From an uncultured Bacteroidales bacterium (GTDB lineage Bacteria > Bacteroidota > Bacteroidia > Bacteroidales > UBA932): a stretch of 64,000 bases of DNA. The translations under genes were made by a program, and so were the position numbers. Shown piece by piece: positions 13,079-55,189 of this stretch (positions within the stretch are counted from its first letter, which is position 1; each line of letters starts with the position of its first letter). Location of the stretch: positions 22,564 through 86,563 of the forward strand of contig ONOQ01000001.1 in NCBI GenBank assembly GCA_900319485.1. The letters run 5' to 3'. The notes under the pieces are model-generated. The model saw only the letters and a program-made list of their open reading frames with translations. It was not told where the DNA came from and did not search any database.

Positions 13079-13161
13079 GCCCGAGTGGCGGAATGGTAGA
13101 CGCGCTGGACTCAAAATCCTGTGGTAGCAATACCGTGTGGGTTCGATTCCCACCTCGGGCA
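13079..13161 (+). tRNA. tRNA-Leu (anticodon CAA)
   Basis: The acceptor stem is GCCCGAG (13079-13085) paired with CTCGGGC (13154-13160), followed by an A discriminator. The anticodon CAA is at 13112-13114 within the loop CTCAAAA. There is a long class II variable arm (GGTA-GCAA-TACC), and a T-arm with GTTCGATTCC. CCA is not encoded. One U-U apposition is visible in the anticodon stem. It is read from its own promoter and followed directly by a strong terminator. Confidence 0.95.
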
Positions 13162-13162
13162 C

Positions 13163-13202: not shown

Positions 13203-13233
13203 GTCGCAGGTCAGGGAGCAAAGTGTCGCAGGT
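13203..13233 (+). repeat. Family A: two GTCGCAGGT cores 22 bp apart (locus 1)
   Basis: Exact cores at 13203-13211 and 13225-13233. The same core with the same 22-base step occurs at 40434-40679 and 51480-51580. It lies between the tRNA terminator and the 3' end of the lipoprotein gene at 13251. No function is known to me. Confidence 0.8.
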
Positions 13234-39952: not shown

Positions 39953-40378
39953 CTAATCCTCCCACGTTACGTTTCTTGATCCATCCGGCTGCACGGTAAT
40001 ATGCACTTTCAGGGTTTCTTCCGGCAGTAGTTCCTCTATATTCTCGGGCCACTCCATAAGACACAGGCAGCCGCTGTCCAGGTAATCATACAGGCCAAGG
40101 TCCAGGGCCTCTGTGAGGCGGTTTATTCTGTAAAAGTCAAAGTGAAATACGGGCTCACCGCTTGCCGCACGGTATTCATTCAGAATTGCAAATGTAGGGG
40201 AACTCACGGCGTCTTCCCTTACTCCAAGGGCATGGCAGACAGCCGTGGTAAACGTGGTTTTACCGGCGCCCATCGGCGCATAGAACGCAATGAGCCGGTT
40301 GCCTCCGATCTCTGAAAGGAATTGTTCTGCCGCCGCCGGCAGCTGCTCAAGGCCGTGTATTGCAATGGAGTGTTTCAC
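39953..40378 (-). CDS. tsaE: tRNA threonylcarbamoyladenosine biosynthesis ATPase TsaE
   Basis: ATPase that supports TsaBD in making t6A on ANN-decoding tRNAs. I chose the GTG at 40378 (giving MKHSIAIHGLEQ). The in-frame ATG at 40396 lies within the TATCTTTG promoter element, and the extra residues MRIFAHV are not family-like. The resulting 141 residues include Walker A APMGAGKTTF, the switch region DAVSSPTFAILNEY, FHFDFYRI and the LMEWPENI segment with the conserved Glu and Trp. Upstream is the largest family A array, oriented so that the array lies behind this promoter. Confidence 0.93.
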   Translation of the reverse strand: MKHSIAIHGLEQLPAAAEQFLSEIGGNRLIAFYAPMGAGKTTFTTAVCHALGVREDAVSSPTFAILNEYRAASGEPVFHFDFYRINRLTEALDLGLYDYLDSGCLCLMEWPENIEELLPEETLKVHITVQPDGSRNVTWED

Positions 40379-40383
40379 GTGCG

Positions 40384-40391
40384 CAAAGATA
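40384..40391 (-). promoter_or_regulatory. -7 element (TATCTTTG) of tsaE-ispE
   Basis: An exact match on the minus strand, 5 bases before the GTG at 40378. It decides the start codon and predicts a leaderless mRNA starting with GUG. Confidence 0.6.
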
Positions 40392-40433
40392 CGCAAAAAA
40401 ACTTGTTTTGGGAATCATCGGCCATCTAATCCC

Positions 40434-40679
40434 GTCGCAGGTGGTGGGGCAGAATGTCGCAGGTCCGGGGGCAGAACGTCGCAGGTCCTGGTGCTAACCG
40501 TCGCAGGTCTGCGTTTTTGGCGTCACCTGCGACGCAAATCGGCCACAGGAGACAAAAAGTGTCGCAGGTCCGACTGTTTTTGCAGACCTGCGACGTTTCT
40601 TCGTGTCACCTGCGACGTTTCTTCGTGTCACCTGCGACATTTCCTTCGGTCACCTGCGACAGTTACTGCCACCTGCGAC
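40434..40679. repeat. Family A: eleven GTCGCAGGT cores with 22-bp phasing (locus 2)
   Basis: Direct cores start at 40434, 40456, 40478, 40500 and 40561. Inverted cores (ACCTGCGAC) start at 40525, 40586, 40608, 40630, 40652 and 40671. Neighbouring starts are 22 apart within each same-orientation run (19 for the last). The direct/inverted pairs at 40500/40525 and 40561/40586 form hairpins with T-rich loops. The 13-base spacers vary, apart from the repeated TTTCTTCGTGTC. It fills the space between the tsaE promoter and the stop of the beta-barrel gene, which it abuts. Confidence 0.9.
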
Positions 40680-40681
40680 GC

Positions 40682-41815
40682 CTAATAACTGCCGATAGAG
40701 AATCTGAGGCCGCCTTCCATCATGAAGCGGACGGGATGGACGGGAAGACCGTTAATGTCCGCGCCGCTCACGCGTGTGAAGTAGTAGCGGGCGGTGGGGT
40801 TGAGGTAGATGCCAAGCCGGGGAGTGATCATGTACTCCGCGCCGGCGCCGATACCTGCCGACCACTGGAACGAGGTGTCCTTCTTCTGCCAGGGAATGGG
40901 CTTGTTGCCGTGGATTGTGAAGTTGTTGGCAAGGAGGTAATCCATTTCTCCGCCGGCAAGGACGTGCACCCTCCAGCGGGGGCTGCGGACTATGTCAAAG
41001 TAGAAGTTTACGGGAACGCCGATCCAGTGCTGCATATTGTCTACGGGCACTTGGGTGAGCACATAGCCGTTGTCTGCGAAGTCTGCGGCGAATGAGCGGC
41101 TGATGTTGAGGTAGTTCACTCCTGTGCCGATGGCCCATCTGGGCGCGAAGTTCCATTTTACGCCAAGGCCCACGGAGAACGGGAACCCGGGTTTGTCGGA
41201 ATCGGGATTGGGATTGAACACTCCTTCCTGCGGCGCTGCGGCCGGGGCGGCGCTGCGGCGGCTAAGGAACGGAGCCTTGGAACTTGCCTGGAAATTACCG
41301 GCGGCGGTAAGGGAGATGTCCCTGCCCGGAAGCGGTTTTGCCTCCCAGGCCAGTTCATTGAGAAGGGTGTTGTCGTCCACCTTTGCCACATAAGAACTCT
41401 TTGGCGGCATTGCAAGGCGGGAAGAAAGCTTCTGAAGGGGCGCCGGGTTAATGGCTGCGTTTGGCACGGCCTCCAGGGAAGCTTCCTCCCGTAAAGCAAC
41501 GGGCGCAGCGGATTTCCTTACCGGGGCCTGTGAGGCCGATTGTGGCGTCACAATGCCTCCGGAAAGGGAATTGTCCAGCCTTGCCGCAAGCGGGGAAGCA
41601 GGCGTAAATTCTTCTAACCTATAACCTTGATTGGGACGCCACAGGAAAACGCCCACCGCTACCGCGGCTGCCGCAGCAAATGCCATGGCTCCCCACATCC
41701 ATGCGGGTACAATGCGTTTCTTTGCGTCCAGTCCTGCCGCTACCGCACTCCAAACGCCGGGGGAAACGGGTTCCTCAGCGTTATAGAGTATATCTCTTAT
41801 GTCCTGATCTCTCAT
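40682..41815 (-). CDS. Anti-sigma-like membrane protein fused to an outer-membrane-type beta-barrel domain
   Basis: A 377-residue protein overlapping the ECF sigma gene by 4 bases. The N-terminus (MRDQDIRDILYNAEEPVSPGVWSAVAAGLDAKKR, about 1-35) is short, soluble and charged like an anti-sigma segment. A transmembrane helix follows (about 39-59), then a Pro/Ala/Ser-rich spacer (about 65-185). The C-terminal domain (about 195-377) has strands typical of the outer-membrane beta-barrel (PorT-like) family: FSVGLGVKWNFAPRWAIGTGVNYLNIS, WIGVPVNFYFDI, WRVHVLAGGEMDYLL, SAGIGAGAEYMITPRLGIYLNPTARYYF and MMEGGLRFSIGSY. The combination of inner-membrane helix and barrel domain implies a protein spanning the periplasm. 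The anti-sigma role is inferred from operon position. Confidence 0.8.
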   Translation of the reverse strand: MRDQDIRDILYNAEEPVSPGVWSAVAAGLDAKKRIVPAWMWGAMAFAAAAAVAVGVFLWRPNQGYRLEEFTPASPLAARLDNSLSGGIVTPQSASQAPVRKSAAPVALREEASLEAVPNAAINPAPLQKLSSRLAMPPKSSYVAKVDDNTLLNELAWEAKPLPGRDISLTAAGNFQASSKAPFLSRRSAAPAAAPQEGVFNPNPDSDKPGFPFSVGLGVKWNFAPRWAIGTGVNYLNISRSFAADFADNGYVLTQVPVDNMQHWIGVPVNFYFDIVRSPRWRVHVLAGGEMDYLLANNFTIHGNKPIPWQKKDTSFQWSAGIGAGAEYMITPRLGIYLNPTARYYFTRVSGADINGLPVHPVRFMMEGGLRFSIGSY

Positions 41816-51479: not shown

Positions 51480-51580
51480 GTCACAGGTGACGCCAAAAAC
51501 GCAGACCTGCGACGGTTCTGCCAAGGACCTGCGACGTATTGTGCCCTGACCTGCGACGCCACCCCCCTTGGACCTGCGAC
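51480..51580. repeat. Family A: five GTCGCAGGT-type cores with 22-bp phasing (locus 3)
   Basis: One direct variant core (GTCACAGGT, 51480) and four inverted cores starting at 51505, 51527, 51549 and 51572 (steps 25, 22, 22, 23). The 51479-51514 hairpin unit is the reverse complement of 40499-40534 with one mismatch in 36. It lies between the small membrane protein and the feoAB promoter. Confidence 0.88.
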
Positions 51581-54208: not shown

Positions 54209-55189
54209 CTAATTCTTCCGGTTTATCAGGCTTACTACTACCTTTACCATTGTAGACATCTCGTCAGTATGGCTTTCCGCAATCATAAGTGTTATAGCCA
54301 CAAGAGAGGCGTCTGATATACGCTTTGTGCCATTGGGCCGATACAATATTCCATTATTCTGCATAAACCATAGGAAAAGAGTAGCGGCTATCCTCTTGTT
54401 TCCATCTACGAAAGAATGATTCTTCACCACAAGATAGAGTATCATTGCGGCTTTTTCCTCTATACTGGGATAGAGGTCTTTTCCGTTCCAGGTCTGATAT
54501 ATTTGGCCGATACTGCTATGGAATGAAGAATCTTTTTCAACGCCAAATAAATTACTTCTTCCTATCTTTGATTTCAAGTTGTGGACAACCTCCATCGCAT
54601 TTTCATATGTTGCGTGAAAGCGCTCCGGTGTGGTAGTGTCTGCTATCTTTAAACTTTGGTAATCATAGGCGTCCAGGGTATCAAGGGCGTATGTGTAGTC
54701 CCGTATAACGTCAAACAGGTCTGTTACTTGGTCTGATGAAAGAAGAAGTTCCTTGTTAAAGACGTTTTCCAGAAGATTAAGTGCTTGCTTCAAATCGGCA
54801 TATTTTTGCTCGGACACAATGTTTCGATTAATTGCGTATCCTTTAAGCATATATTGCTTTATAATGCCTGTGGCCCAAATCCTGAAGTTGGTGGCCATAA
54901 TGGAGTTAACTCGGTAGCCGACAGAAATAATCACATCTAAATTGTAGTATTGAACAGGCCTGTCTGAAAAAGCAATTTGCATTTTTTGCAAAGTGCTTTC
55001 TCTTGATAGTTCGCCACACTTGTAAACATTTCGTATGTGTCTTGAAATGTCTGACACGTCTTTGCCAAATAACGTTGCAATTGCTTTTTGAGTTGCCCAT
55101 ATGGTCTCGTGGTTTGGATCAACCATCGCTTCCATTTTGACCAGTCCATCATTAGACTGATAGATAATAATGTCATTTCTTTCTTCCAT
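54209..55189 (-). CDS. RhuM-Fic/Doc fusion protein
   Basis: A 326-residue protein with an N-terminal RhuM-type domain (IIIYQSNDGLVKMEAMVDPNHETIWATQKAIATLFG...YYNLDVIISVGYRVNS, about 8-120) and a C-terminal Fic/Doc domain with the complete active-site motif HSFVDGNKR (His258) at about 258-266. Fic enzymes transfer AMP or similar groups to protein targets; Doc phosphorylates EF-Tu. RhuM-Fic fusions are common as stand-alone accessory genes in gut bacteria. I did not see an inhibitory (S/T)xxxE(G/N) helix with confidence. The composition is A+T-richer than the neighbours. The gene is bracketed by direct family B copies, 9 bases after the left one and about 60 from the right one, suggesting a cassette. 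Confidence 0.9.
   Translation of the reverse strand: MEERNDIIIYQSNDGLVKMEAMVDPNHETIWATQKAIATLFGKDVSDISRHIRNVYKCGELSRESTLQKMQIAFSDRPVQYYNLDVIISVGYRVNSIMATNFRIWATGIIKQYMLKGYAINRNIVSEQKYADLKQALNLLENVFNKELLLSSDQVTDLFDVIRDYTYALDTLDAYDYQSLKIADTTTPERFHATYENAMEVVHNLKSKIGRSNLFGVEKDSSFHSSIGQIYQTWNGKDLYPSIEEKAAMILYLVVKNHSFVDGNKRIAATLFLWFMQNNGILYRPNGTKRISDASLVAITLMIAESHTDEMSTMVKVVVSLINRKN

Follow-up and report, generated by a model that had tools for sequence, protein, structure and literature searches.

A dispersed repeat with a covarying hairpin centre and phased half-sites in a genus of Bacteroidales, probably the REP/BIME-like partner of a Y1-type transposase family

An array of short inverted and direct repeats in 64,000 nucleotides of Bacteroidales DNA (the whole stretch analysed, referred to here as the window) is, with a probability of roughly 80%, a copy of a non-autonomous REP/BIME-like repeat belonging to a Y1 (HUH-type) transposase family of the RAYT/TnpA-REP-like kind. 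The repeats are dispersed, and their presence and length vary among sister genomes; their centre is a covarying imperfect hairpin in which an internal loop is kept unpaired; and they flank a transposase gene, with a core that changes with the transposase clade. From this we infer that the transposase mobilises the repeat. Repeat and transposase together are read here as a new variety of REP/RAYT system, characterized by the lack of a GTAG foot, a Y[IV][PA][RK]NA motif, a transposase of ~300 aa and phased half-site arrays. Coordinates of the features in the window are collected in Table 1.

Table 1. Parts of the array and related features, in window coordinates
Feature	Position	Strand	Basis or remark
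Whole array: 11 exact 9-bp cores, order ++++-+-----, flanking runs at 22 bp	40434..40679	.	
Conserved 95-bp centre: core-N16-core'-N27-core-N16-core'	40500..40594	+	Sequence; predicted single-strand fold
Predicted fold of the centre: 13-bp outer stem, internal loop, 11-bp inner stem, apical loop	40500..40594		z -4.96; 0/200 shuffles fold as well
Arm A: GTCGCAGGT-CTGCGTTTTTGGCGTC-ACCTGCGAC	40500..40533	+	
Arm B: GTCGCAGGT-CCGACTGTTTTTGCAG-ACCTGCGAC	40561..40594	+	
Left half-site run: three direct cores, 22-bp steps, running on into the centre	40434..40486	+	
Right half-site run: four inverted cores, steps 22, 22, 19	40608..40679	-	
Half element: one arm (GTCACAGGT-N16-ACCTGCGAC) and three inverted half-sites	51480..51580	-	
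Two-core remnant	13203..13233	+	40 bp behind tRNA-Leu (13079-13162)
Segment present in the window, absent from G204	40403..40681	.	279 bases; single base C129:18914 instead

The core of the repeat is the 9-mer GTCGCAGGT (complement ACCTGCGAC). A first interpretation, made from the letters of the window alone (the sequence-only reading), had reported eleven exact cores with direct core starts stepping by 22, 22 and 22 bp and the last inverted starts by 22, 22, 22 and 19 bp, and a recount at 40434-40679 bore out the number, the order and the steps. The exact core occurs 17 times in the window, against a mean of 0.46 and a maximum of 3 in 100 dinucleotide shuffles, and the copies outside this array lie at 13203-13233 and 51505-51580. 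Same-strand steps inside the window arrays are exactly 22 bp in 9 of 11 cases, the remaining two being 19 and 23, and this count is unbiased in that the window was not picked for spacing. The same reading had described constant cores with variable spacers, and this holds: in 207 distinct 22-mers starting with the exact core, among the matches listed, each spacer position carries 0.03-0.62 bits, so the spacers vary and are far less conserved than the cores. The arrays at 13203-13233 and 51480-51580, the 95-bp centre and the genome-wide dispersal were missing from that reading. A CRISPR array was ruled out: its direct repeats are 24-48 bp long, all point the same way and are separated by unique spacers, and the cores here are 9 bp long, occur in both orientations and have 13-bp spacers. 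Elsewhere in the window, at 54209-55189 on the minus strand, a protein with RhuM-like and Fic domains (Pfam PF13310, PF02661) is encoded.

The pair GTCGCAGGT-N13-GTCGCAGGT occurs 29 times in the window's own genome (G000; 2.5 Mb, 91 contigs) and the reversed control pattern 0 times. Neither of the two outcomes named in advance as refuting the sequence-only reading, a core at chance frequency genome-wide and spacers as conserved as the cores, was thus observed. This spaced pair was present in 4 of 61 genomes (G000 and 60 relatives), all four of the same genus. At 10 of the 12 array sites fetched from G000 the 95-bp centre was found, made up of two inverted core pairs that are separated by 27 bases and in each of which 16 bases lie between the core and its inverted copy; the two sites lacking it are the remnant and the half element of the window, and arms of 17 bases were found outside those G000 sites. 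The centre is found in both orientations, and its 27-base middle is asymmetric. It is flanked on the left by direct and on the right by inverted cores at 22-bp steps, in a number that varies, as does the number of half-sites with which individual copies end. Orthologous sites differ in unit number, with 217 bp at L158 against 173 bp, two units fewer, at L091. Among the matches listed, 207 of 311 steps are 22 bp, a fraction that is biased because loci L041-L152 were themselves collected by the 22-bp pair pattern; some pair-pattern loci in other phyla, also among the matches listed, hold one pair without a centre and were taken as chance. Hairpins with the GTCGCAGGT core number 20 in G000 and up to 34 in G149. 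Elements lie mostly outside mechanical ORF calls of at least 250 aa (59 of 78), the other 19 falling within such calls, some at ORF ends and some in chance loci. The named relatives carrying the repeat, among the matches listed, are rumen and gut Bacteroidales assemblies, in which the REP/BIME-like reading would explain it. A second dispersed repeat of ~100 bp, of the GGGCAATGA...TTACACGTTTT type, adjoins three array sites (the right flank of L155 and the flanks of both arrays in L156, at query bases about 713-817, 1028-1127 and 1633-1733 in the flank comparison); its matches are numerous in G204, and G208 and G149 have some as well.

Comparison with the sister genomes G204 and G208 showed filled and empty sites. 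The site of the window array is empty in G204, where flanks 92% and 97% identical to those of the window enclose one base and no target duplication is evident; the missing segment also covers 31 bases to the left of the first core, which makes the boundary of the element approximate. The half element is absent from G208, in which the site reads TTCTAGGCCGCCC straight across, with flanks that align less well, and GGCC stands on both sides of the insert, so that a 4-bp duplication is possible at this site; the comparison of the half element with G204 gave no clear site. The site of the two-core remnant is filled in G208 (about the same length) and in G204 (longer, with a hairpin), and the C56 site, at which G204 lacks about 340 bp, does not qualify as cleanly empty. 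Deletion could account for the empty sites. Beside the array, a tsaE stretch (window 40011-40342) corresponds to G208:C10:157878-158209 in inverted orientation and at a match of only 73%, with collinear flanks, as if tsaE had been inverted or replaced in G208.

As single-stranded DNA the plus strand of the window centre is predicted to fold into a nested hairpin (z -4.96, DNA parameters), and the minus strand retains the 13-bp outer stem (z -5.08). The final four spacer bases of arm B, GCAG, pair with the opening four of arm A, CTGC. Conservation of this fold was assessed on centres gathered by their cores, of which there were 118 distinct ones among the matches listed (90 with GTCGCAGGT, 28 with seven other cores) and 57 once those more than 85% alike had been removed. 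Arm pairs 1-4 match the four spacer bases that follow the left outer core with the four that precede the right outer core. Pairs 1-4 were Watson-Crick in 56, 46, 47 and 35 of the 57 centres, against shuffled means of 32.8, 21.8, 35.6 and 21.0, and at each position none of 500 shuffles, which ignore relatedness, reached the observed count; the arm ends covary, with examples such as CTGC/GCAG, CCCC/GGGG, GTGA/TCAC and GGGC/GCCC. Position 5 gave no pairing signal in the 57 centres (27 vs 23.9; 87/500 shuffles). At positions 6-8 Watson-Crick pairs were avoided (9, 11 and 11 of 57 vs 22.3, 23.1 and 18.5), with T opposite T or A opposite A. The outer stem is therefore maintained and the internal loop held open, and the roughly dyad form noticed in the sequence-only reading is real and fits one nested hairpin.

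Separate local hairpins, formed by arm A alone and arm B alone, were considered and rejected, since the arm positions favour the nested form; core positions are uninformative on this point, the cores having served to collect the centres. Part of the arm signal is nevertheless local, as a weaker within-arm signal was found at position 1 (arm A, 33 vs 26.5, 11/500 shuffles; arm B, 39 of 57 vs 30.3, 0/500), and in 19 of the 57 centres one position of the inner core pair (A3[4]-B5[6]) is unpaired. The 95-bp centre is thus an imperfect palindrome with an unpaired stem part, as found in REP/RAYT systems. In the E. coli REP the unpaired part of the stem is needed and restoring the stem abolishes activity, and the unpaired bases are only moderately selected in SELEX, according to the main text of PMC8266576. 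The geometry of the hairpin varies by clade: in the GGGGAAGGT type (G034, G028, G095, G121, G201 and others) paired hairpin starts are often 75 bp apart, against about 61-62 bp, so that the middle segment is ~40 bases, and G064, also of the GGGGAAGGT type, retains a spacing of 62-63 bp.

Three elements are clustered on contig C63 of G000, and two of them flank a gene of 319 aa (P0001). The idea of a gene cassette bounded by elements 1.3-3.3 kb apart was dropped; one interval holds the transposase gene. A C5-cytosine DNA methylase gene (PF00145) lies on the same contig at L153:5399-6388 (minus strand), ~2.3 kb from a transposase-flanking array. Of 200 genomes of the genus, 157 have relatives of P0001 at E 0.001; when sampling was widened to 150 genera of the order, 2 of 198 genomes matched the profile at the stricter E 1e-10, both of the same genus, and the family was found here only in this genus. 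Arrays with GTCGCAGGT are present at 6 of the 30 best transposase loci (L159, L160, L161, L163, L164 and L166), always on both sides of the gene, and the transposases at these loci are 62-100% identical to P0001. Among the eight closest transposases, those of L162 (75%) and L165 (63%) have no GTCGCAGGT array beside the gene; the flanks of L162 carry GCATCAGGT-like hairpins. An automatic search detected centres in 22 of 36 transposase loci (three loci being entered under two names) and in 0 of 36 single-base-shuffled flanks; several loci of the AAGGT type escaped it, some of them with a wider distance between the two hairpins.

Transposase lengths are mostly 302-323 aa. The motif Y[IV][PA][RK]NA was found in 29/29 seed proteins (L168 failed the motif regex and lies outside these 29, yet forms one row of the tree), and an HxH motif is present; at the HUH motif the nearest clade has NHGH, its middle residue being glycine. 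A structure model of low confidence (pLDDT 55.7, six sequences) was compared by Foldseek, in which ranks 1-29 were IS200/IS605-family or putative IS200-like transposases (best E 4.2e-4, seven matches at E <=0.001) and the E. coli RAYT bound to REP (4er8) was rank 31, with an rmsd of 3.1 over 129 columns; the model thus predicts for the linked transposase the Y1 HUH fold of REP/RAYT systems. Of 7 members, 4 matched Pfam Y1_Tnp below threshold (best E 1.9e-4, 22.0 bits vs 23), and P0001 did not match it at all; among the family members scanned no Y1 match in Pfam or NCBIfam reached its curated cut-off. P0001 and its close relatives were left unnamed by sequence searches of Pfam, NCBIfam and PDB, and a PHROGs search gave nothing useful. 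A small ORF (about 117-153 aa) terminates close to the start of the transposase gene at 30 of 37 loci (27 of 34 distinct; 24 calls by a strict motif, 6 by eye). This ORF carries an HRDC domain in L164/L123 (Pfam E 2.3e-18) and is HRDC-like, by eye only, in L047, L114 and L166; two of the non-HRDC type gave no match above cut-off.

The core of the repeat follows the transposase. Hairpins of the form NNNNN-AGGT-N16/17-ACCT-N'N'N'N'N' number 59 in 27 of 35 transposase loci, against at most 3 for any other inner tetramer; CGGT occurs in a few centres elsewhere (3 of 118, typed GTCCCCGGT, among the matches listed). Differences between cores track protein distance (Mantel rho 0.61, 0/2000 permutations, 29 rows, with L160 and L161 omitted as near-duplicates of L159 and the cores of L170, L171, L174 and L179 assigned by hand). 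A second transposase of G000, 45% identical, is flanked instead by the repeat GGACCAGG/GACCAGGT. Away from the gene, GTCGCAGGT hairpins occur in 7 of the 8 genomes whose transposase is 60% identical or more, whereas 5 of the remaining 192 have any hairpin (Fisher 2.7e-9; the 60% line was chosen after the list was seen, and the match in G172 is a single hairpin). For GGCGCAGGT the corresponding counts are 6 of 7 expected genomes against 10 of 193 others (Fisher 6.5e-7), with G072, whose copies lie beside the gene only, scored as a miss, and for GGGGAAGGT 5 of 5 against 20 of 195 (Fisher 2.1e-5); only gene-distant hairpins were counted for these two cores because the core had been read from the same genomes. 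Expected genomes, here and in the foot test below, were drawn from the 30 best transposase loci, and transposases were considered in those genomes only. Individual genomes depart from the pattern: for G149, an 82%-complete and fragmented assembly with 34 GTCGCAGGT hairpins, no close transposase was found, through either a lost gene or an assembly gap; G150 is the reverse, having a close transposase without the hairpins; and G023 holds elements with a best transposase 45% identical. Repeat type co-evolves with transposase type, as in REP/RAYT systems.

This linkage of core type to transposase clade is unpredicted if the array is a phased double-stranded binding site that a regulator or a protein organising the chromosome uses, and for whose sake it was retained or spread, and so are the fixed asymmetric centre, the covariation outside the core and the avoided pairing at arm positions 6-8; we regard that explanation as unlikely. 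It is consistent with the 22-bp spacing of exact 9-bp cores, close to two turns of the helix, and with their variable spacers, and half-sites phased on one face of the DNA are possible. The double-strand binder could be supplied by a C-terminal helix-turn-helix, for which 5 of the 8 transposases scanned gave matches at chance level (E 0.015-0.15, none reaching the cut-off), a reading that is weak because an unrelated family, ECM29_N, outscored every one of them (E 0.0038 in L114). The sequence-only reading had proposed recognition by a sequence-specific protein or structure, and this much is supported; recognition is probably by a Y1/HUH-type transposase, which would act on the folded single strand, in place of the regulator or chromosome organiser envisaged there.

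The position of the elements relative to genes bears on a further explanation, that they act as RNA, in transcribed hairpins which terminate transcription or protect message 3' ends and have spread passively. Distances of 60 bp or less were found in 31 of 65 stop-facing and 14 of 49 start-facing cases, and 57 elements with two neighbours lie in 20 convergent, 25 tandem and 12 divergent gaps, against 54, 122 and 74 of 250 background gaps. The closeness to stop codons, the convergent gaps and the strong predicted hairpin (DNA parameters) agree with an RNA element, but the divergent gaps do not, and the linkage to the transposase would be left unexplained. A terminator scan of window 40200-40900 gave no intrinsic-terminator-like site; the sole Rfam match up to E 1 was mir-43, at 20 bits vs a gathering score of 54; and in the 57 centres G.U was not clearly in excess over A.C mismatches, RNA and DNA not being separated by this count. 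An RNA element is accordingly judged quite improbable. A MITE of an ordinary insertion sequence with an internal minisatellite, like BrickBuilt of P. gingivalis, is hardly credible, for it would account for the intergenic position, the variable tandem 22-bp units (23 nt in BrickBuilt, by the main text of PMC4596501) and presence or absence between sister genomes, but copies end in variable numbers of half-sites rather than in fixed inverted termini, target duplication is not evident at the G204 site, and the linked transposase has a Y1-type fold by the structure model.

If the array is a REP/BIME-like repeat served by a Y1 transposase, as favoured here, the 95-base centre would fold wherever the DNA becomes single-stranded, for example on the lagging-strand template. 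The cognate Y1 domain would read the stem (a variable NNNNN and the nearly constant AGGT) together with the unpaired T/A-rich loop, cleave, and move the element to a position between genes, in many cases just past a stop codon. Runs of 22-bp half-sites would grow or shrink by whole units and may raise the local protein concentration, perhaps via the HTH-like C-terminus, and the small gene directly upstream of the transposase (HRDC in one clade) may encode an accessory nucleic-acid-binding factor. A more elaborate scheme is offered tentatively, and we consider it doubtful: a two-mode, two-gene transposition in which Y1 would act on the folded centre, the HTH-like C-terminus on the double-stranded phased half-sites and the small partner (HRDC in one clade) on single strands, the array serving as a loading platform whose unit number tunes activity or expression and the bases before AGGT serving as a recognition code. 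How REP-type repeats spread is described as an open question in PMC8266576. The genus offers many transposase/repeat pairs in close relatives, and the recognised bases (NNNNN, AGGT and the open loop) are visible by comparison, so single-strand recognition is testable by swapping pairs in vitro.

The sequence-only reading knew of no described element of this form, which was only partly right because REP/RAYT systems (REPtrons, BIMEs; main texts of PMC6006769 and PMC8266576) are a described kind; for this repeat, transposase family, accessory gene and phased half-site array themselves, no description was met in the main-text passages and listings of the REP/RAYT, REPIN, Bacteroidetes and BrickBuilt literature covered here. 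The BrickBuilt MITEs are likewise intergenic repeats of Bacteroidales, with tandem units of 22-23 nt between the two, and by the main text of PMC4596501 have IS-type terminal inverted repeats, whereas exact 9-mer cores, variable spacers and a hairpin centre are found here and, judged by eye from the copy ends, no IS-like terminal inverted repeats bounding the element were met. TIRYT or subclass 2.1 elements (main texts of PMC3733652 and PMC6006769) share a long Y1 protein, flanking inverted repeats and possibly an HTH-like C-terminus (weak here), but REP-like sequences are reported absent from subclass 2.1 in the main text of PMC6006769, and hairpins flank 27 of 35 loci here. TnpA-REP subclass 2.6 (RAYT group 5) belongs to the same phylum, the Bacteroidetes, and likewise has 'atypical secondary structures' on its flanks that recur at other places in the genome; going by the main-text description in PMC6006769, it is set apart by a transposase of 179 aa with YIH[QN]NP, against mostly 302-323 aa and Y[IV][PA][RK]NA here. 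A GT[AG]G 5' foot was not enriched (17 of 236 ends vs 11 of 223 background), so the repeat is REP-like and not a REP. With REP/RAYT systems as presented in the main texts of PMC6006769 and PMC8266576 it shares dispersed intergenic imperfect palindromes with an unpaired stem part, cognate repeats flanking the transposase gene and one repeat type for each transposase type; it differs in the two 34-nt arms nested in one 95-nt hairpin, the 22-bp half-site runs, the nearly constant inner AGGT/ACCT, the upstream accessory gene and a transposase of ~300 aa with Y[IV][PA][RK]NA in place of the class 2 Y---NP (PMC6006769, main text), and adds to the REP/RAYT picture a candidate accessory protein and a phased half-site array.
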